Shown here: positions 35,091 through 45,212 of the stretch, piece after piece
Numbering within the stretch: the first letter of the stretch is position 1
Layout of the letters: the number at the start of each line of letters is the position of its first letter
Origin: Clostridia bacterium
GTDB lineage: Bacteria; Bacillota; Clostridia; Oscillospirales; Acutalibacteraceae
Direction of reading: 5' to 3'
DNA: 64,000 nucleotides
Assembly (NCBI GenBank): GCA_017624675.1
Contig: JAGAMO010000009.1
Coordinates: forward strand, 216,801 to 280,800
Translations under genes and position numbers: made by a program
The notes under the pieces: generated by a model
The model's input: the letters and a program-made list of their open reading frames with translations, nothing else
Told to the model about the DNA's origin: nothing
Databases searched by the model: none

Positions 35091-36110
35091 ATGTTTACAA
35101 GAGATATAGGAGTTGACCTTGGCACCGCCAACACCTTGGTTTGTGTTAAAGGCAAAGGAATTATAATGCGTGAGCCTTCGGTTGTAGCTTATGATATAAG
35201 AAACGACGCTGTTCGCGCCGTGGGTCACGAGGCTAAAGAAATGATAGGCAGAACACCAGGCTCTATTGTAGCTGTTCGCCCTTTAAAGGACGGTGTTATT
35301 GCCGACTTCGACGTTACCGCCGCAATGCTTAAAAGGTTTGTAAATTTATCACTTAAAGGCTCGTTTTTCTCCAGAGTTCGAATGGTAATTTGTATTCCTA
35401 CAGGCGTTACCGAGGTTGAAAGCCGCGCGGTTATTGACGCTGCAAAAATTGCGGGTGCATCGGATATTGATTTGATAGAGGAGCCCATGGCTGCCGCTGT
35501 TGGCGCAGGACTTCCCGTTTGGGACGCCAAGGGCAATATGATAGTTGACGTTGGCGGCGGTACAAGTGAGGTTGCCGTTATCTCCTTGGGTGACATTGTA
35601 ACCGCACAGTCTATTCGTGTTGCGGGTGACGATTTGGACGAAGCGATTATCAACTACATTCGCCGCAAACACAACCTCATTATAGGTAACCGCACAGCCG
35701 AGCAGATTAAAATTGACATTGGCTCTGCAAAGCCTTACGAGGGCGAGACCAGTGTTGAAATTAAAGGCCGAAATCAGGTTGACGGTTTACCCGCAAACAT
35801 TGTTATCACCTCTAAAGAGGTTAGAAAGGCTATGGCGGACACTATCAGTCAGATTATTGACACTATAAGACTGACGCTCGAGAAAACTCCCCCCGAACTT
35901 GCCGCAGATATTATTGATACAGGCATTACTTTAACGGGCGGCGGCGCACTGCTTCGCGGTTTTGCCGAGCTTATTGCCGAAGAAACAGGCATTGCCGTTA
36001 GAGTTGCCCCCAATCCCCTTGACTGTGTTGTTTTAGGCACTGCGAAACGCCTTGAAAATGACAGTCAGTTTGAAAATTATGTTTTCCGCAAAGGAAAGAG
36101 ATACAGATAA
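35091..36110 (+). CDS. mreB: Rod shape-determining actin homologue MreB
   Basis: 339 residues. DIGVDLGTANTLV is phosphate loop 1, IVDVGGGTSEVAVISLG is loop 2, and ITLTGGGALLRG is the adenosine motif near the C-terminus. MreB forms membrane-bound filaments that direct the elongasome. Its start follows directly after the stop of the preceding lipid kinase gene. The mreC gene follows 14 bases later. Confidence 0.97.
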   Translation: MFTRDIGVDLGTANTLVCVKGKGIIMREPSVVAYDIRNDAVRAVGHEAKEMIGRTPGSIVAVRPLKDGVIADFDVTAAMLKRFVNLSLKGSFFSRVRMVICIPTGVTEVESRAVIDAAKIAGASDIDLIEEPMAAAVGAGLPVWDAKGNMIVDVGGGTSEVAVISLGDIVTAQSIRVAGDDLDEAIINYIRRKHNLIIGNRTAEQIKIDIGSAKPYEGETSVEIKGRNQVDGLPANIVITSKEVRKAMADTISQIIDTIRLTLEKTPPELAADIIDTGITLTGGGALLRGFAELIAEETGIAVRVAPNPLDCVVLGTAKRLENDSQFENYVFRKGKRYR

Positions 36111-36124
36111 ACGGAGTGTAGAAA

Positions 36125-36979
36125 ATGCGCTTTTTCTTTAGAAGCCGACAATTTAAAATTATTCTCGCCGTATTCTTGAGCTTGGTTATACTTTCTATAA
36201 CCTGTGTTATAATCGGTAGCAGAATTTCTCCCCAAGCAGATTTGTTTGGGTCGGTTTTAGCGCCCTTTAGAACGGTTTTCGTTAAAACGGCAAACGCTTT
36301 TGAGGACCTTTTCACCATTTTTACCGAGGGTGAGGAGGCAATGCTTAAAAACGCCGAGCTTGAAAGCGAAATTGCAAAACTCAGGGAAGACACAGCCGAG
36401 CTTGAAAAAATAAAGAAAGAAAACGAGTTTTATAAAAACTATCTTGAAATCAAGGACGCTCACCCCGATTTTGCTTTCCAAAAAGCCACTTTAATCTCGA
36501 AAGAGAACAAAGACCCCTTTAAAGGCTTTACCATAAACGCAGGGTCGGCTCAAGGCTTAACTCTTCACGACCCCGTTATGACCGAGGCGGGTCTTGTGGG
36601 TTATATTTCACAGGTGGGACTTACCACCTCTAAGGTTGCAACCGTTTTAGACCCCGACATTACCCTTGGCGCACTTGACAACCGCACAAGCGATTCAGGT
36701 GTTTTATACGGCAGTGTAACGACCGCTAAAAAAGGACTCACGGGACTTTATAATCTTTCCCGTTCTTGCAATGTTGCGGTTGGCGACTTTATCATAACAT
36801 CGGGCGAGGGTATTTTCCCTGAGGGTCTTCTTATCGGAACGGTTCGTTCCATTGGCAGTGAAAAATACAACACCTCTCTCTTTGCCGAGATTGAGCCCTT
36901 TGTAAACCTTGACGATGTTAGAGATGTTATGGTTATCACAAACTTTGAGGGTCAAGGCGGTTTAGACCCGAATAAATAA
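36125..36979 (+). CDS. mreC: Rod shape-determining protein MreC
   Basis: 284 residues: a short cytoplasmic start, one membrane segment (about 13-31), a coiled coil (about 65-100), then two beta domains with ITSGEGIFPEGLLIGTVRSI, typical of MreC. It is anchored in the membrane and links MreB with periplasmic-side wall enzymes. GGAGTG precedes the ATG. Order mreB-mreC-mreD-mrdA is conserved. Confidence 0.94.
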   Translation: MRFFFRSRQFKIILAVFLSLVILSITCVIIGSRISPQADLFGSVLAPFRTVFVKTANAFEDLFTIFTEGEEAMLKNAELESEIAKLREDTAELEKIKKENEFYKNYLEIKDAHPDFAFQKATLISKENKDPFKGFTINAGSAQGLTLHDPVMTEAGLVGYISQVGLTTSKVATVLDPDITLGALDNRTSDSGVLYGSVTTAKKGLTGLYNLSRSCNVAVGDFIITSGEGIFPEGLLIGTVRSIGSEKYNTSLFAEIEPFVNLDDVRDVMVITNFEGQGGLDPNK

Positions 36980-37009
36980 ACTTTAAACTTTAAGAAAGGC
37001 GGTGAAAAC

Positions 37010-37522
37010 ATGACTAAAAGCAGACATTGGGGACTGAAAATTGTTACATTTTTAATTTTTTTCCTCTCCTTGACCCTTTTTGGCGGGTCGGGTATAAGTC
37101 TTGCCATTTTAGGCGTTTCGCCCCTTTTGGTATTAAGTGTTTTAACCGCTTTTGCCTCTTATTCACGAATTTCGGTTACGGTTTTTGCCTCTCTTTTGTG
37201 CGGAATTGTTACCGATTCGGTATCGGCAAAGGGATATTGCTTTAACACCATTGCTTTTTTAATTTTCGGTGTTTTGGCAAACCTTTTAGCAGAGCATGTT
37301 TTCAACCGCAACTTAAGAGCCACCGTAACCCTATGCTTTTTGCTTACATTTGCCTATTATTTGGCATATTGGCTGTGTTATTCGGCCTTTACTTTGCGTT
37401 TTGATGACAGTATGCGTTATCTTTTGCAGTGGTGTTTGCCAAGCGCAATTTACACCGCTGTGCTTTGCATTCCCTTTTACTTTTTATTCATTAAATTCAA
37501 ACAAATCAGAGAACTTGATTAG
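37010..37522 (+). CDS. mreD: Rod shape-determining membrane protein MreD
   Basis: 170 residues with five to six membrane segments and few charged residues, the expected size and position for MreD. Sequence identity in this family is low, so the call rests on topology and on lying between mreC and mrdA. An AAGGCGGTG ribosome site is present. Confidence 0.88.
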   Translation: MTKSRHWGLKIVTFLIFFLSLTLFGGSGISLAILGVSPLLVLSVLTAFASYSRISVTVFASLLCGIVTDSVSAKGYCFNTIAFLIFGVLANLLAEHVFNRNLRATVTLCFLLTFAYYLAYWLCYSAFTLRFDDSMRYLLQWCLPSAIYTAVLCIPFYFLFIKFKQIRELD

Positions 37523-37536
37523 GAGGTGAATTCCCT

Positions 37537-39510
37537 GTGCCCTTTAAAAAGAAAAATCAAACGGCAATAACCGTTTTATCGGTTTTGCTTTGCGTTTCTA
37601 TGCTCACTTTAACCTTTAGAGGTTATTTTTTGCAAATTAAAAGTCGGGAATTCGCCGATAAAAACGACGGTGCCGCTTCGGTGCTGACCACCGTTTTGAA
37701 AGCTCCGCGCGGTGAGATTCTTGACTGCTACGGCAGACAAATTGCAATTAACCGCGACGGTTATAATATAGTTTTCAACAAGGCTTATGTTAAGGAAAAT
37801 CTTAACGATGTTATCTTAACCCTTGTGAATTTACTGGAAGAAAAGGGCGCAGAGTATGCCGACGAGCTTCCCATTTCTAAAACCGAGCCTTATACCTATA
37901 CCGAGGACGGCGACAAGGACAAGCTTCTAAAAACACTTGAACTTGCTCACTATGCAACACCCCAAAACTGTATAGACGAAATGACCGAAAAATATGAATT
38001 AAAGCATTATTCTTCAGCAGACGCCCGCAAAATTTCGGGCATTCGTTACAGTATGGATATAAACGATTTCTCAGTTTCCTACCCCTTTACCTTGGCTGAG
38101 GATATCCCCGCCGAGCTTATGCTTAAAATTTCGGAATCTGCTTTTCTTCTTTCAGGCGTTACAGTAGATGTTGTGCCTGTAAGACAGTATCTTGACACTT
38201 CCCTTGCCGTAAACCTTATAGGCACTGTGGGTCCCATTTTTAAAGAGGACTGGGAGGAATACCGCGAAAAAGGTTATTCCTATAACGATAAGGTGGGCAA
38301 AAGCGGAATTGAAGCCTGGGGTGAGGAATATTTAAGAGGTACCGACGGTGAAATGACCTACCGCCTCGATGCAGAAGGTAAAATCATTTCAAAAGAGGTA
38401 ACTGTTGAGCCTATTGCGGGTAAAACCATAATGCTGACCCTTGACAAGAATATGCAACGCGTAGCTCAGGACTCTTTGGCAGAAACAGTAAAGAATTTGC
38501 AGTCAACGGGCGGCACTGCCAGAGCAGGTGCGGCAGTTGTTGTTGATATAAAATCGGGCAATGTGCTGTGCTCTGCAAACTACCCGACCTACGATTTAGC
38601 AACCTTAGGCGAGAATTACAACGAATTGTCTTCTAACCCCGACAAACCGTTGACCGACCGCGCATTCCAAGGTGTATACCCCATCGGCTCGACCATAAAA
38701 CCCATTGTTGCTATTGCAGCTATGGATAATAACTTGTATGACACAAGCGAATATATTTTCTGCAAACAGCAATATGATTATTTCGCTGATTACAAGCCAA
38801 GCTGTATGCACTATCACAAAAGCATTGGTCTTAACACCGCACTTTCAAAGAGCTGTAACTACTTTTTCTTTGAATTAGGCCGCCGTGTTGGCGCAATAAC
38901 CCTTACCGACTATTTCAAACAGTTCGGTTTAGGTCAAAAAACGGGTGTTGAGGTAAACGACGCTTCGGGCATTATTTTAGAGCCCAAGTCAAACGGCACA
39001 GGCGGTGACACACTGCAGATTTCCATCGGTCAGCTCAACGCCTTTACCCCTTTGCAGGTTGCAAACTATATCGCAACATTGGCAAACGGCGGAACACATT
39101 ATAAAGCAGGACTTATCAAGAGTGTTGTTTCCTATGATATGTCCGAAACCTTTAAGGACTTCAAACCCGAAATTAAGAATCAAATTAACATAACAACAAA
39201 ATCACTCAACGATGTTAAAGAGGGTATGTTATCTGTGACGGTTGACGGTACTGGTCAGGCGGCGCTGGGTGATTACCCCATTCGCATTGGCGGTAAAACG
39301 GGTACCTCACAGGTGACAGGAAAGGCAGACCACAGTATTTTCGTGGTTTTCGCACCCTATGATAATCCCGAAATTGCCGTTTCGGTAGTGCTTGAGCACG
39401 GCTCATCGGGTTTTGCGGCCGGTACTGTTGTCAGAAACATTTTAGATGCCTATTTCTTCACCGAATCAGGAAGTCCCGCTGAGGACAGACCTTTTATAGT
39501 GTTAGACTAA
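37537..39510 (+). CDS. mrdA: Class B penicillin-binding protein, PBP2-type elongation transpeptidase
   Basis: 657 residues. One N-terminal membrane anchor (about 9-27), a pedestal/dimerisation domain (APRGEILDCYGRQIA near 56-70, YRLDAEGK), then the transpeptidase with the three signature motifs: S385-T-I-K388, S439-C-N441 and KTGT at 587-590. It cross-links side-wall peptidoglycan with the mre proteins. Starts at GTG 37537 with AGGAGGTGA about 12 bases upstream. rodA, the glycosyltransferase partner often nearby, is not in this run. Confidence 0.94.
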   Translation: MPFKKKNQTAITVLSVLLCVSMLTLTFRGYFLQIKSREFADKNDGAASVLTTVLKAPRGEILDCYGRQIAINRDGYNIVFNKAYVKENLNDVILTLVNLLEEKGAEYADELPISKTEPYTYTEDGDKDKLLKTLELAHYATPQNCIDEMTEKYELKHYSSADARKISGIRYSMDINDFSVSYPFTLAEDIPAELMLKISESAFLLSGVTVDVVPVRQYLDTSLAVNLIGTVGPIFKEDWEEYREKGYSYNDKVGKSGIEAWGEEYLRGTDGEMTYRLDAEGKIISKEVTVEPIAGKTIMLTLDKNMQRVAQDSLAETVKNLQSTGGTARAGAAVVVDIKSGNVLCSANYPTYDLATLGENYNELSSNPDKPLTDRAFQGVYPIGSTIKPIVAIAAMDNNLYDTSEYIFCKQQYDYFADYKPSCMHYHKSIGLNTALSKSCNYFFFELGRRVGAITLTDYFKQFGLGQKTGVEVNDASGIILEPKSNGTGGDTLQISIGQLNAFTPLQVANYIATLANGGTHYKAGLIKSVVSYDMSETFKDFKPEIKNQINITTKSLNDVKEGMLSVTVDGTGQAALGDYPIRIGGKTGTSQVTGKADHSIFVVFAPYDNPEIAVSVVLEHGSSGFAAGTVVRNILDAYFFTESGSPAEDRPFIVLD

Positions 39511-39518
39511 ATAAGGGT

Positions 39519-39547
39519 TTGACAACACTTTTGGTTTATGATAAAAT
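39519..39547 (+). promoter_or_regulatory. Sigma-A promoter of the minD-mgsA-hisS-aspS operon
   Basis: TTGACA (39519-39524), 17-base spacer, TAAAAT (39542-39547), 25 bases before the minD ATG. It separates this run from the mre operon. Confidence 0.82.
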
Positions 39548-39571: not shown

Positions 39572-40300
39572 ATGAGTAAAATATTTGCCACCACCTCAGG
39601 CAAGGGCGGTGTGGGAAAATCAAGTGTTGCCACAGGTTTAGGCCTTGCTTTCGCGTCTTTGGGCAATCAGGTTCTCCTTGTGGATATGGACGAGGGACTA
39701 AGGTGCCTTGACCTATTACTAGGTGTAGACGGTGAGGTTGTTTTAGACCTTTCGGACGCGCTTGGCACCCCCAACGTTTCGGATATTGCATACCCTTGCA
39801 AGACTGAGGGCTTATATCTTTTGCCCTCCCCCTCAAAATACGGTCTTGTGACAAAAGAGGCACTCGAGGAATTTTGTAACAAAGCTAAAAAAATTTACGA
39901 TATTATAATTTTTGATTTCCCCGCGGGAATTGATTTTACTCTTTATGAGGCTTTGCCTAAAGAGACGGTTTTCCTTTGCGTTGCCACACCCGACCCCGTT
40001 TCTGTTAGAGACGCTTCCTTTGTTGGAGCAAAGCTTTTTGAACTAGGGCTAACAGCCCGGCTTATAATCAACCGATTTAACATTAAAACCCATTTCAAGC
40101 GCAAACAGAAAAATATTGACGGAATAATTGATGCTTCCTCTATCCGACTTTTAGGGATAGTGCCTGAGAGCGACGAAATTAATCTTTTATCCCTTCGCCA
40201 CCGCTTGAAAAAAAATAAAAAGCCATTTAAAGCCTTTGTACGCATTGCGAACAGACTTTTAGATAAAAACATACCACTACAAAAACTAAAAAAGATTTGA
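39572..40300 (+). CDS. minD: MinD-like ATPase with no visible membrane-targeting tail
   Basis: 242 residues from the ATG at 39572 (GAGGGG upstream; an in-frame TTG at 39554 is less likely). The deviant Walker A SGKGGVGKSS is at 9-18, VDMDEGLRCLD follows, and IIFDFPAGID is the Walker B region. MinD normally places the septum inhibitor MinC and binds membrane by a C-terminal amphipathic helix. Here the protein ends in PLQKLKKI, without the GFF...LF-like helix I would expect. minC and minE, the usual neighbours, are absent, so the function may have drifted. Confidence 0.82.
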   Translation: MSKIFATTSGKGGVGKSSVATGLGLAFASLGNQVLLVDMDEGLRCLDLLLGVDGEVVLDLSDALGTPNVSDIAYPCKTEGLYLLPSPSKYGLVTKEALEEFCNKAKKIYDIIIFDFPAGIDFTLYEALPKETVFLCVATPDPVSVRDASFVGAKLFELGLTARLIINRFNIKTHFKRKQKNIDGIIDASSIRLLGIVPESDEINLLSLRHRLKKNKKPFKAFVRIANRLLDKNIPLQKLKKI

Positions 40301-40310
40301 GGTTTTGAAA

Positions 40311-40715
40311 ATGACAATTGCACTTATCGCACATGACGCCAAAAAGGAACTTATGGTGCAGTTTTGCATTGCATACTGCGGCATATTGAGTAAATATAAC
40401 CTTGTTGCAACCGGCTCCACCGGAAAGGTTGTTTCCGAAGCCACAGGTCTTGAGATAACTTCCTTTTTATCAGGTTCTCAGGGCGGCGCACAACAGATTG
40501 CAAGTCGCATTGGCTGTGACGAAATTGACCTTCTCTTAATGTTCCGTGACCCCATTACCGCGAAACCCAACGAGCCTGACGAACAGGTGCTTTTGCATCT
40601 TTGCGATATTCACAATATCCCCGTTGCAACAAATATTGCTACCGCCGAAATGCTTATCCACAGCTTAGAGCGTGGAGACCTTGACTGGCGAGAAATTATG
40701 AAAGCGAATAAGTAA
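40311..40715 (+). CDS. Methylglyoxal synthase family protein lacking the catalytic aspartate
   Basis: 134 residues from the ATG at 40311. It keeps the family fold and phosphate-binding segments: IALIAHDAKK at the N-terminus, ATGSTGK, FLSGSQGG, FRDPI and PVATNIATAE. In characterised enzymes the loop reads GGDQQ and that Asp (D71 in E. coli) is the catalytic base; here it reads GGAQQ. The His of the PHxPD segment (H98 in E. coli) is Asn, while the second Asp (D101 equivalent) is kept. Activity, DHAP to methylglyoxal, is therefore doubtful. It lies between minD and hisS, the syntenic place of mgsA. Confidence 0.85.
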   Translation: MTIALIAHDAKKELMVQFCIAYCGILSKYNLVATGSTGKVVSEATGLEITSFLSGSQGGAQQIASRIGCDEIDLLLMFRDPITAKPNEPDEQVLLHLCDIHNIPVATNIATAEMLIHSLERGDLDWREIMKANK

Positions 40716-40716
40716 A

Positions 40717-42018
40717 ATGGCAGAAATTAACCGCGCAATTAAAGGAACAAACGATATTCTCCCCGAGGAGAGTCACAACTGGCAGTTTGTTGAGAGCAAA
40801 ATGCTTGAAACTGCCGCACAATTCGGTTTTAAGGAAATTCGTGTGCCCGTTTTTGAGCATACCGAGGTTTTTTTGCGTAGCGTTGGAGATACTACCGATG
40901 TTGTGCAAAAGGAAATGTATACCTTTGACGATAAGGGCGGCCGCTCAATTACACTCAGACCCGAGCTTACCGCAGGTGTTATCCGTTCAAGCATTGAAAA
41001 GGGTCTTGTAAACGGCGCTTTGCCCCAAAAATTATGTTATATCGGCGGTTGCTACCGCTATGAAAAGCCTCAGGCAGGCAGACTAAGAGAATTCCACCAG
41101 TTCGGTGTTGAATGTGTTGGCGCTGCGGCACCCAATGCCGACGCAGAGGTTATTTCTCTCGCAAAGGCAGTGCTTGAAAACATTGGAATAAACAAGATTT
41201 CTCTCGAAATCAACTCCATCGGCTGTCCCGAGTGCAGAAAAGAGTACCACAAGGCGCTTAAGGAGTATTTCTCCAAGAATGCCGAGACTCTTTGTGACAC
41301 TTGTAAGGACAGACTCGACAGAAATCCTATGCGAATTTTAGACTGCAAGAGTCCTGTATGTAAGGAAATTGCAGAAAACGCCCCCGTGGTTATAGATTAT
41401 TTGTGTGACGACTGCAAAAACCACTTTGAAAGCGTTAAAGCCCACCTTGAGGCTATGAATATTGACTTTACGGTTAACCCAAAAATCGTGCGCGGTCTTG
41501 ATTATTACACAAGAACTGTTTTTGAGTTTGTTTCAAAGGATATTGGCGCTCAGTCAACCGTTTGCGGCGGCGGCCGTTATGACGGACTTATTTCTCAGAT
41601 GGGCGGACCCCAAACCCCCTCTTTAGGCTTTGCTATGGGAATTGAACGCCTTATGATGGTGCTTAAAGCCCAAAATGCAGCTATGCCCGAAGCCCCCACC
41701 TGCGATTTGTTTATTGCAACACTTGGCGAAAAGGCAAGTATCAAAGCCAGTGCCCTTTGTAAAGAGCTTAGAGATGAGGGTTACAAGGCTCAAACCGATA
41801 TTTGCGGCAGAGGTCTTAAGGCACAAATGAAATATGCCAACAAAATCGGAGCTAAATTTACACTTGTTTTGGGCGATAACGAGGTTGAAACCGGCAAGGC
41901 TAACCTCAAAAATATGTCGAATTCTGCCGAGAGACAAATTGAACTTAACGAGTTAGTAGAAGAACTGGGCGAGGAAATCCGCAAAATTTTATTTGAAAGC
42001 ATTGCAGAAGTTTTTTAG
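40717..42018 (+). CDS. hisS: Histidyl-tRNA synthetase
   Basis: A class II synthetase, 433 residues, charging tRNA-His. The class II motif 2 region (ITLRPELTAGVIRS, then RYEKPQAGRLREFHQFG) and the histidine-binding RGLDYYTRTVFEF are present; motif 3 is LGFAMGIERL. A C-terminal anticodon-binding domain covers about 330-420. It starts one base after the preceding stop. It is the true synthetase; the HisZ domain at 11837 is its paralogue. Confidence 0.97.
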   Translation: MAEINRAIKGTNDILPEESHNWQFVESKMLETAAQFGFKEIRVPVFEHTEVFLRSVGDTTDVVQKEMYTFDDKGGRSITLRPELTAGVIRSSIEKGLVNGALPQKLCYIGGCYRYEKPQAGRLREFHQFGVECVGAAAPNADAEVISLAKAVLENIGINKISLEINSIGCPECRKEYHKALKEYFSKNAETLCDTCKDRLDRNPMRILDCKSPVCKEIAENAPVVIDYLCDDCKNHFESVKAHLEAMNIDFTVNPKIVRGLDYYTRTVFEFVSKDIGAQSTVCGGGRYDGLISQMGGPQTPSLGFAMGIERLMMVLKAQNAAMPEAPTCDLFIATLGEKASIKASALCKELRDEGYKAQTDICGRGLKAQMKYANKIGAKFTLVLGDNEVETGKANLKNMSNSAERQIELNELVEELGEEIRKILFESIAEVF

Positions 42019-42031
42019 GAGATGAAACTTT

Positions 42032-43804
42032 ATGTTAGATAGATTACAAGGTCAAAAACGCACCCATTATTGCGGTGTGTTAAGGCGTGAAAACGAGGGC
42101 GAAATTGTAACCGTTTGCGGTTGGATTCAAAGACAGCGCGATTTAGGCGGTCTTATCTTTGCCGACCTTCGCGACCGCACAGGTATTGTGCAGTTAGCCT
42201 TTGACGATAACACCGAAAAAAGCCTTTTTGAAAAGGCTTCTACTCTTCACAGCGAATATGTTGTTATGGCTGAGGGTAAGGTGCGTGTTCGTTCCTCTAT
42301 AAATAAAGAAATTCCCACAGGCGAGGTGGAAATTGAGGTTACAAGCCTTAAAATTTTGGGCGAAAGCCAGACTCCTCCCTTTGAAATTTTGGAAAATTCC
42401 AATGCAGGTGAGGATTTGCGACTTAAATACCGCTATCTTGACCTTCGCCGTCCTGATATTCAGAAAAATATTCTTCTTCGCCACAAGATCACCAAGGTGA
42501 CAAGGGATTATTTTGACGAAAACGGCTTTATCGAGATTGAAACCCCCACCCTTATTAAGTCCACACCCGAGGGTGCGAGAGACTATTTGGTGCCCTCCCG
42601 TATTCATAAAGGCAGTTTCTTTGCGCTTCCTCAGTCTCCTCAGCTTTACAAACAGCTTTTAATGCTTTCAGGATTTGACAGATATATGCAAATTGCCCGT
42701 TGCTATCGTGACGAGGACTTGAGAGCCGACCGTCAGCCCGAATTTACCCAAATTGACCTTGAAATGTCCTTTGTTGAGCCCGATGATGTTTATGCTATCG
42801 CCGAGGGTTACATTAAACGCCTCTTTAAAGAGGTTTTAGATGTGGATATTCCCACTCCCTTGCCGAGACTCAAGTTTGTTGACGCTATGAATGACTACGG
42901 CTCGGACAAGCCCGACACACGCTTTGAAATGAAAATCAAGGATTTGTCGGACATTGTCGAAAACTGCGGTTTCTCAGTGTTTAGCGATACCATTAAAAAC
43001 GGCGGAACTGTAAGAGCAATTACCGCAAAGGGTGCTGTTGACACTTATACCAGAAAAGAAATTGACAAGTTGACCGAAACCGCTAAAGGTATCGGCGCTA
43101 AGGGTCTTGCCTTTATCCGTTGGGTTGAGGATACACCTACCTGCTCCTTCTCTAAATTTATGACCGAAGATGAAATGAAGGCAATTTTGGAGAGAACAGG
43201 CGCCGAAAAGGGCGACTTGGTGCTTATTGTTGCTGACAAAAAGAGCCTCTGCTTGTCAGTATTGGGTGCGCTTCGCCTTACCGTTGCAAAGCGACTTGAT
43301 ATTATACCCGACACTTACAATTTCCTTTGGATTACCGAATTCCCCTTCTTTGAGTATAACGAAGAAACAGGCAACTGGGATGCTATGCACCATCCCTTTA
43401 CCTCGCCCTTGGACGAGTCGATTCAGTATTTGGATACAAATCCCGAAAAGGTCTTTGCAAAAGCTTATGACCTGGTACTCAACGGCGTTGAGCTTTCAAG
43501 CGGTTCTATCCGTATTACCGACCCCGTTTTACAGTCTAAAATGTTTAAGGCATTAGGCTTGTCCGACGAGGAGGCTCACGAGAAATTCGGCTTCCTTACA
43601 GATGCCTTTAAGTACGGAGCTCCCCCTCACGGCGGAATGGGTATCGGCCTTGACCGACTTGTAATGCTTATGTGCGGTTGCGACAGTTTGCGTGATGTTA
43701 TTGCCTTCCCCAAGATTTCCAACACCACTGAGCCAATGTCGGGCGCTCCCGCGCAGGTTGACGATATCCAACTTAAAGACCTTAATATTAAAACTCTAGA
43801 ATAA
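42032..43804 (+). CDS. aspS: Aspartyl-tRNA synthetase
   Basis: A class IIb enzyme, 590 residues, the bacterial long form with an N-terminal OB anticodon domain (about 1-110), catalytic core, and an inserted GAD domain (about 290-420). FEIETPTLIKSTPEGARDYLVPSR and RCYRDEDLRADRQPEFTQ are motifs 1-2, and GIGLDRLVMLM is motif 3. AGGAGATG lies before the ATG. Its 3' end overlaps a minus-strand small gene by 17 bases, and its likely terminator lies inside that gene. Confidence 0.96.
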   Translation: MLDRLQGQKRTHYCGVLRRENEGEIVTVCGWIQRQRDLGGLIFADLRDRTGIVQLAFDDNTEKSLFEKASTLHSEYVVMAEGKVRVRSSINKEIPTGEVEIEVTSLKILGESQTPPFEILENSNAGEDLRLKYRYLDLRRPDIQKNILLRHKITKVTRDYFDENGFIEIETPTLIKSTPEGARDYLVPSRIHKGSFFALPQSPQLYKQLLMLSGFDRYMQIARCYRDEDLRADRQPEFTQIDLEMSFVEPDDVYAIAEGYIKRLFKEVLDVDIPTPLPRLKFVDAMNDYGSDKPDTRFEMKIKDLSDIVENCGFSVFSDTIKNGGTVRAITAKGAVDTYTRKEIDKLTETAKGIGAKGLAFIRWVEDTPTCSFSKFMTEDEMKAILERTGAEKGDLVLIVADKKSLCLSVLGALRLTVAKRLDIIPDTYNFLWITEFPFFEYNEETGNWDAMHHPFTSPLDESIQYLDTNPEKVFAKAYDLVLNGVELSSGSIRITDPVLQSKMFKALGLSDEEAHEKFGFLTDAFKYGAPPHGGMGIGLDRLVMLMCGCDSLRDVIAFPKISNTTEPMSGAPAQVDDIQLKDLNIKTLE

Positions 43805-43982
43805 AATCAAATATTTTTATACTGCTGTCATTTATTTCTATTGCACTGCGGTATTCTCCAAAGCCTACGAGGCGTATGCCTTCGTAGGCTTTTGTTATTC
43901 CAAAAAACCCGAGCATTAAACAAAAAACCACAACTGACGAAACAAAAAAACTTCTGAAAAATAACCTTGTATTCCTTTTCAC
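43788..43982 (-). CDS. Small membrane protein, hypothetical
   Basis: 64 residues: basic start, one membrane segment or signal anchor (about 9-29), then a polar tail with YEGIRLVGFGEYRSAIEI. I cannot name a family. Support for a real gene: a GTG start with GGGGG 6 bases upstream, a normal signal-anchor layout, and location downstream of spoIIP on the same strand. Against: it is short and overlaps the aspS end and terminator. Possibly a forespore or mother-cell membrane protein, but that is only suggested by the neighbour. Confidence 0.5.
   Translation of the reverse strand: MKRNTRLFFRSFFVSSVVVFCLMLGFFGITKAYEGIRLVGFGEYRSAIEINDSSIKIFDFILEF
43861..43895 (+). terminator. Terminator of aspS, embedded in an antisense gene
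   Basis: AAGCCTACGA-GGC (43861-43873) pairs with GCC-TTCGTAGGCTT (43878-43891) with one bulged base and a GTAT loop, followed by TTGTTATT. The same bases encode KAYEGIRLVGF of the minus-strand small gene. Confidence 0.7.
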
Positions 43983-44084: not shown

Positions 44085-45140
44085 TTAATTTAAATCCGAT
44101 AACAATTTCACAAGGCAGTCGCCAACGAGATTTGCCGAGTAATGCACCTCTTCTAATGTATTCGCGTCAGTGCCGAATTCCAAAAGCAGAGAGCCTGTAG
44201 TTAGGCTTTGGTTGTAATTTTTACTCATAAGCATTAAGGGTCTCGCCAAAGTCGGATAATTTTTCTCCATTACATTTTGAAGTTTGACAGCCAGTTTAAA
44301 ATTTTCCTCCCATTTTGGAAAATTTGTTACAGAGCCGCTTTGCGACCCCATAACTAACATTACCTGAGCCGCCTTTTTCCCGCCGATTTCGGTGACGAGC
44401 TTTACCTTATCGCCGTTTTCTTTTGTAACAGCATCTCGGTGAAGGTCAAGCACCACTTTAATTGAGGGGTATTTCTGCAAATATTCCTTTACAGTCTCGG
44501 CGCTTCTTGAATAGCTTTTTGTGTAGCTTGGGTAATCGTGCAGTGTAGCAGAGTGCAAGGTCACAATCCCCGCCGAATTTAATTTTTCTGCCACAATTTT
44601 TCCAACCGACACCATATTCTGCGCCTCGTTTAAACTGCGTGAAGAAAAATTTTCGGTAAAATAGGGTTTATCGTCGGTTTTAAAGGTTTCGGTGGCGTGG
44701 GTATGAAGAATTAAAACCTGTGGCTCGGCGTTTTTTGCGATACTAAAATTAATTTTTCCCTCTAAGTAATCCTTGATTCTAATATTCAAAGGTGTGCTGT
44801 TTTTTAGGTAGACCGCATCGTAGCTATCCTTTGCAGAATAGGGTGAATTATACTGACTTATAATATTGCCTTTTATAGCCTCGGCAGAGGTTTCTTTCAC
44901 CTCTTCTTGAGGTTTAGATTCTGTCTCTTTGTTCTCGCTCGTTTCTTGCGGTTTTTCTTCTTCTTTTTCCTCTTCTTTTTGTGGTGTTTCCGCCTTACTT
45001 GAGGCAGTGTTTTTCAAAGGCTCCTTTATATTTGTTTGAGCCTTAGAAAAAAAGGCATCTTTATTAAAAAAACCGCATAAAAAAATCAAGCAAATGCTTA
45101 AAAAATTAACCAAAACAACCCTTAAAATCGAGCTTTTCAT
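44085..45140 (-). CDS. spoIIP: Stage II sporulation protein P, cell-wall hydrolase
   Basis: SpoIIP, an amidase/endopeptidase, works with SpoIID and SpoIIM in the mother cell to remove septal peptidoglycan and drive engulfment. 351 residues from the ATG at 45140: an N-terminal anchor (about 5-24), a Lys/Glu/Pro-rich linker (about 40-90), then the catalytic domain with VLILHTHATE, VVLDLHRDAV and the Glu in LLLEFGTDA. A GTG at 45155 in frame would add five residues but has the AGGGG touching it; the ATG has that site 12 bases away, so the start is uncertain. Upstream gpr, often adjacent, is absent. Confidence 0.92.
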   Translation of the reverse strand: MKSSILRVVLVNFLSICLIFLCGFFNKDAFFSKAQTNIKEPLKNTASSKAETPQKEEEKEEEKPQETSENKETESKPQEEVKETSAEAIKGNIISQYNSPYSAKDSYDAVYLKNSTPLNIRIKDYLEGKINFSIAKNAEPQVLILHTHATETFKTDDKPYFTENFSSRSLNEAQNMVSVGKIVAEKLNSAGIVTLHSATLHDYPSYTKSYSRSAETVKEYLQKYPSIKVVLDLHRDAVTKENGDKVKLVTEIGGKKAAQVMLVMGSQSGSVTNFPKWEENFKLAVKLQNVMEKNYPTLARPLMLMSKNYNQSLTTGSLLLEFGTDANTLEEVHYSANLVGDCLVKLLSDLN

Positions 45141-45212
45141 TTTTACTCTTTTCACCCCTTAAAAACACCAAAAAAAGACGCAAAATTTATGCACTTTTTT
45201 CATTCAAAAACA

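Follow-up and report, generated by a model that had tools for sequence, protein, structure and literature searches.

A strongly conserved methylglyoxal synthase homologue with the catalytic aspartate replaced, located between minD and hisS in a Clostridia bacterium

The window analysed here, a stretch of 64,000 nucleotides from a Clostridia bacterium (contig JAGAMO010000009.1), carries on its plus strand the rod-shape genes mreB, mreC, mreD and mrdA (35091..39510), followed by a gene coding for a MinD-like ATPase (39572..40300), a homologue of the methylglyoxal synthase gene mgsA which lacks the codon for the catalytic Asp (40311..40715), hisS (40717..42018) and aspS (42032..43804). Ten bases separate minD from the mgsA-like gene, and a single spacer base lies between the stop codon of the latter and hisS. 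A promoter-like site with 11 of 12 matches and a TG before the second hexamer (39519..39547, plus strand) precedes minD and a terminator-like stem of 13 pairs (43860..43892, plus strand) follows aspS, so a common transcript of minD, the mgsA-like gene, hisS and aspS is likely, both sites being consensus matches of which the region holds 20 each against 14.0 and 11.9 expected, respectively. Just past the operon, a gene for stage II sporulation protein P (SpoIIP, TIGR02867) is located on the minus strand (44085-45155), which hints that the organism is a spore former.

The mgsA-like ORF begins with ATG at 40311, ends with a stop codon at 40713-40715 and codes for a protein of 134 aa, which belongs to the MgsA family by sequence, exceeding the curated cut-offs over most of its length: 150.4 bits against NCBIfam TIGR00160 MGSA (cut-off 146.9), 145.6 against NF003559 (cut-off 84) and 35 bits against Pfam MGS (cut-off 24.1). 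The best PDB chain is 6f2c, an MgsA enzyme, with an E value of 5e-40 and homology over the whole length. The residue numbering coincides with that of the active C. difficile enzyme (cdMGS), with the motifs AHD at 7-9, QGGAQQ at 57-62 and KPNEPD at 85-90. In cdMGS, D60 (E. coli D71) serves as the base and the substrate is contacted by H8 and H87, the PHEPD His (E. coli H98) being described as accessory; the phosphate is held by K12, S54, T34-G38 and the G55 backbone (PMC7843640). The first-pass annotation, made from the letters alone, had reported that the GGDQQ loop reads GGAQQ and that the His of the PHxPD segment is Asn, and both substitutions were borne out. The base is replaced by A60, encoded by GCA within the codons GGC GGC GCA CAA CAG of residues 58-62 (40482..40496, plus strand) at the position of E. 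coli D71, and the His by N87 within the PNEPD codons of residues 86-90 (40566..40580, plus strand) at the position of E. coli H98. D90, the equivalent of E. coli D101, the second catalytic Asp of MgsA, is kept in this protein and is gone in many other rows of the alignment. The substrate and phosphate contacts H19, K23, TGTTG, S65 and G66 are present as H8, K12, TGSTG at 34-38 (including T34 and T37, with S for one T), S54 and G55, and D9 is also retained.

A homologue is present in 66 of the 70 genomes of the genus, including all 39 of good quality. The base position is occupied by A, S or T in all 65 orthologues read (that of G048 was left out of the 66) and by D in none, with ten different codons encoding these residues across the assemblies, and a sequencing error as the source of A60 was rejected as unlikely on these grounds. 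Whether the Ala form is kept in relatives, a check proposed by the first-pass annotation, is thus answered by a genus-wide loss of the Asp. Among 63 distinct genus rows D9, K12, T34, T37 and G55 are invariant, while D90 is found in 61, H8 in 58 and H87 in only 13. The same annotation had also noted that substrate-contacting Thr/Ser/Gly residues remain, and several phosphate contacts are indeed present in the window protein. In the genus the S54 column consists of 23 G, 21 S, 18 A and one P, and T36 is T in 29 of the 63 rows.

Beyond the genus, homologues of any kind were detected in 293 of 300 genomes of the family search (133 of 135 genera), 282 of 295 of the order search and 124 of 196 of the class search, with the loci read (L073-L316) representing a part of the genomes with a homologue. 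L269 (partial, 88 aa) was dropped before counting and identical proteins were merged, reducing 315 to 280 rows, of which 19 were set aside as second-copy type (L033-L037, L243-L246, L300-L302, L304, L306-L310, L312; all with H8, D60, H87 and D90), leaving 261; L301 and L302 adjoin mrdA and minD, so setting them aside was too broad. Among 189 distinct rows from the family and named relatives, 185 lack D60, D90 or both and the other four keep the pair; the 57 named rows in this set may include neighbouring families. The corresponding numbers are 34 of 42 rows for the rest of the order and 14 of 30 for other orders. The sample is non-random, since the query's best matches make up most of the family and named rows; in the tail of the family search, namely 30 genomes chosen for low scores, both Asp are kept in none of 29 distinct rows. 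Over the 280 rows 15 different residues occur at position 60, and positions 87 and 90 are also variable. Many members with D60 have D90 changed to Asn (PHEPN), therefore different lineages lost different catalytic residues. The loss is thus larger than one genome, being genus-wide and shared by many wider relatives, and the gene, which belongs to the mre-min-hisS cluster, probably codes for an MgsA-derived pseudoenzyme that is conserved and under selection.

The copy linked to mre, mrdA and min is often canonical in other clostridial families (e.g. L278, L279, L281-L283, L286, L290, L315), with minC and minE at such loci being confirmed by profile only where the searches overlap, such as in L290 and L291, and rodA assigned from its size. 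A tree of 123 columns, in which 67 of the 119 inner branches are open, places the majority of the canonical rows outside the degenerate ones, with the degenerate L293, L313 and L314 falling among canonical rows. From this placement and the frequency of canonical copies at the same locus in other orders, the change was most likely a loss of catalysis and not a gain. By parsimony, at least 18 changes at D60 are required on 122 rows and 24 on 280. AU tests were performed on 106 rows, 16 having been left out mostly for long branches. A single clade of the rows lacking either Asp was not rejected (66 of 106 rows, p 0.40), and the test for D60 alone, the trait of the original finding, came after that outcome and rejected a single clade of D60-less rows (49 of 106 rows, p 0.0026). 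This rejection supports repeated loss of the base Asp but falls short of proving that catalysis itself was lost more than once; a test for linkage between the losses of D60 and D90 yielded too few supported pairs.

The mgsA-like gene is under purifying selection, with a median dN/dS of 0.050 (Nei-Gojobori, 68 genus pairs) as compared to 0.091 in 33 pairs of hisS and 0.130 in 8 pairs of minD; the three genes were compared over different sets of pairs, and dS is near 1 in each. In terms of identity to the window over shared genus loci, the mgsA-like protein exceeds the hisS product in 62 of 62 loci (medians 85 and 74%), the minD product in 63 of 63 (85 and 53%) and the mrdA product in 33 of 33 (82 and 65%), and is about equal to the aspS product, being higher in 18 of 31 (82 and 81%); mreB was covered by no shared locus, and just 13 loci included mreC and mreD. 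The suggestion that it is the best conserved gene of the operon was rejected on account of the aspS result. Two marks of a pseudoenzyme are found together, the loss of essential catalytic residues and purifying selection. The majority residue has a mean frequency of 0.786 in 105 thinned non-canonical rows, close to the value of 0.781 obtained from 27 canonical rows. Few columns held by canonical enzymes are lost in the non-canonical rows (36, 60, 82, 86-90 and 94). The comparison is not like for like, with the non-canonical rows coming mostly from one family and the canonical ones from the whole class. The non-canonical set was chosen for the absence of D60 or D90 and the canonical set for the presence of H8, D60, H87 and D90, so part of the contrast at these positions follows from the choice of rows, which does not apply to positions 36, 86, 88 and 89 or to the variability of 87. 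When the 131 columns of the 105 non-canonical rows are ranked by variability (entropy), position 87 is 2, 60 is 7, 86 is 12 and 90 is 15, followed by T36 (22), S54 (27), G55 (74), T37 (90), K12 (100) and T34 (105), and the ATN motif occupies ranks 128-130. Such a pattern of conservation is, at the sequence level, that of a pseudoenzyme in which the fold is probably kept along with part of the ligand site. Since the catalytic residue is lost and the protein is nevertheless strongly conserved, its function is probably something other than methylglyoxal synthesis.

In search of a second, normal mgsA, as the first-pass annotation had advised, no other MgsA was found in the assembly of the organism itself (96.7% complete), where the sole other PF02142 match lies within a 1063-codon frame, presumably CarB. 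Five of the 70 genus genomes possess a canonical second copy away from the mre-min locus (L033-L037; all five were read). The idea that a normal copy covers for the degenerate one was rejected for the organism studied, its own assembly holding none. In the family search 40 of the 300 rows contain two or more matches (including one split gene and one near-identical pair), and few of these second copies were read. In G543, a genome of the same order, there are two non-canonical MgsA homologues (L225 and L226), of which one adjoins minD and the other a pyrroline-5-carboxylate reductase gene. PF02142 matches in the organism's own assembly are limited to the CarB-like frame and the mgsA-like protein, with no match to the MGS domain of PurH, which is expected in purine makers, and purH may therefore be missing, diverged or in a gap there.

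With regard to the neighbourhood, minD is one of the two nearest upstream ORFs at all 66 loci of the genus, at 46 of 67 in the family, 61 of 76 among the named relatives, 38 of 46 in the rest of the order and 16 of 30 in the rest of the class. For hisS, as one of the two nearest downstream ORFs, the counts are 64 of 66, 59 of 71, 68 of 77, 24 of 46 and 0 of 30, respectively. These are counts of loci with 700 bases of flank and not of distinct genomes, some of which were counted twice. In several lineages the gene stands instead behind gyrA (L118, L099, L259 and L262, from the family; with hisS) or an FGGY kinase gene (L147), the neighbours being named by Pfam. All 32 order genomes tested lack MinE and have no MinC over the cut-off, with three weak sub-cut-off MinC matches (G171, G432, G467), whereas outside the order each of the two proteins occurs in 10 of 11 genomes. 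The possibility that the mgsA-like protein replaces MinE or MinC was considered in view of their absence in the order and is weakened by L294, L295, L297 and L311, where MinC, MinD and MinE coexist with a degenerate copy, as well as by the non-obligatory adjacency of minD. The MinD-like ATPase itself looks like an orphan: it scores 133.6 bits against the MinD equivalog model TIGR01968 (cut-off 212.9), diverges fast within the genus, and is accompanied by no MinE or over-cut-off MinC in those 32 genomes. MinD was matched at E 1e-30 or better in 15 of 16 genomes with the mgsA-like gene (the exception being G226), and among eight genomes at least 90% complete without the gene, four yield nothing better than 1e-6 (G074, G135, G391, G566), three have MinD (G154, G390, G513) and one has a partial match (G528). 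A partnership with MinD is possible, with the co-occurrence leaning weakly towards it.

The first-pass annotation had suggested that the protein may be inactive or changed in role, such as a DHAP or phosphate sensor, and this is partly supported; the genus-wide extent of the change, the loss of the D101 equivalent in other relatives and the strong conservation were beyond what the letters alone could reveal. In our opinion, the mgsA-like protein is probably an MgsA-derived pseudoenzyme that may still bind a phosphorylated ligand or phosphate and would act as a regulator through protein contact. With the base Asp and mostly also the PHEPD His gone under strong purifying selection, it would no longer synthesize methylglyoxal at a useful rate. 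It would still bind phosphate or a small phosphorylated compound, with DHAP and phosphate as the likeliest ligands, because K12, T34, T37 and G55, which hold the DHAP phosphate in active enzymes, are nearly invariant, and the ligand state would be passed on by contact with another protein, the candidate targets being MinD and the neighbouring shape and division machinery, or HPr. Several observations do not fit this smoothly. D90, H8 and D9 remain, so weak or different catalysis is conceivable; the phosphate cradle is incompletely kept, with S54 and T36 variable and G55 only of middle rank; four of the 189 rows keep both Asp; and MinD is far less conserved than the mgsA-like protein and not always adjacent.

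Should the phosphate cradle residues merely serve the fold, the protein could be a pure scaffold or structural partner of a shape or division protein, most likely MinD, and bind no ligand. The constant proximity of minD in the genus and its frequency beyond, the persistence of MinD in the order where MinE and MinC are absent, and the co-occurrence among genomes with and without the gene all speak for it; we nevertheless regard it as unlikely, as MinD diverges fast while its supposed partner does not, the gene stands behind gyrA or the FGGY kinase gene in several lineages, the complete Min set of four loci accompanies an equally degenerate copy, and K12, T34 and T37 are better kept than the average column. 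Still less credit is given to a protein that remains catalytic, either synthesizing methylglyoxal slowly with D90 or D9 as the base or performing another reaction on a phosphorylated substrate. The near-constancy of H8, D9, K12 (the latter two in 63 of 63) and D90 in the genus rows and the limitation of position 60 to small residues there are what one would expect of such an enzyme, whereas the wide range of residues at position 60 in the 280 rows, the variation at 87 and 90 and the existence of relatives which lack D90 instead are not, since a new chemistry common to these proteins would be expected to hold residues constant and not to release them.

Another rival is that an ancestral contact of MgsA with HPr or a Crh-type protein was kept for a role in carbon-flux signalling. 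HPr was found in 33 of the 34 genomes searched, and the organism's own genome has one copy with both the His (His15) and the Ser (Ser46) motif. A Crh-like copy devoid of the His occurs in two genomes of family f51 (L339 and L340), whereas the HPr copies read in the genus retain it. In B. subtilis Crh binds and inhibits MgsA (PMC12291648, PMC10714963). Since HPr is widespread its presence proves little, and this explanation is considered improbable. The two f51 genomes (G767 and G659) carry HPr-like proteins without the usual His and with the Ser motif kept, reading GLDSKAA and GLNSKAA, and the min-linked MgsA copy there is degenerate. A decaying gene, be it a pseudogene-like relic or an artefact, would account for the loss of catalytic residues, but a median dN/dS of 0.05 and the absence of any stop inside the match in all 66 genus genomes with the gene, including 39 of 39 good assemblies, leave it next to no credibility.

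Returning to the favoured ligand-binding regulator, a broader and distinctly tentative proposal is that the mre-min copy of MgsA in Clostridia had a second, ancestral and non-catalytic role as a sensor of triose phosphate or phosphate coupling glycolysis to shape, division or growth, and that catalysis was later dropped in the order of the window and several families with this role kept, so that a widely annotated gut protein would make no methylglyoxal. Non-catalytic binding has a precedent, as the MGS fold serves in carbamoyl phosphate synthase (CarB) as a non-catalytic, ligand-binding regulatory domain; that domain belongs to the same Pfam family (PF02142), while the mgsA-like protein differs from it in being stand-alone and scoring as MgsA. 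With the MgsA enzymes (EC 4.2.3.3) of E. coli, B. subtilis and C. difficile it shares homology over the whole length, the cdMGS numbering and several phosphate contacts, and with canonical copies of other Clostridia the mre-min locus, differing in the Ala and Asn substitutions at two positions which also vary in relatives. In common with pseudoenzymes in general, catalytic residues are lost under purifying selection and the ligand-site residues are partly kept. Among the open-access papers searched, we recognised none on inactive MgsA homologues, on an MgsA-family pseudoenzyme or on mgsA-minD linkage.

Should the interpretation hold, the current name is wrong for a strongly conserved protein that occurs in common gut bacteria, including Ruminococcus bromii, and it becomes a testable question why mgsA lies in the clostridial shape and division cluster and whether the role kept there is chemistry or sensing. 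In a gut metagenome study EC 4.2.3.3 was counted as a source of the 1,2-propanediol for propionate (PMC9855101), and inferences of this kind could be misled by degenerate MgsA homologues. Both NCBIfam methylglyoxal synthase models are matched at E 1e-24 or better by each of the 46 members tested, whether or not the base Asp is present, the comparison of bit scores with cut-offs given above applying to the window protein only. The R. bromii copy (L180) reads GGSQQ and PNEPN.
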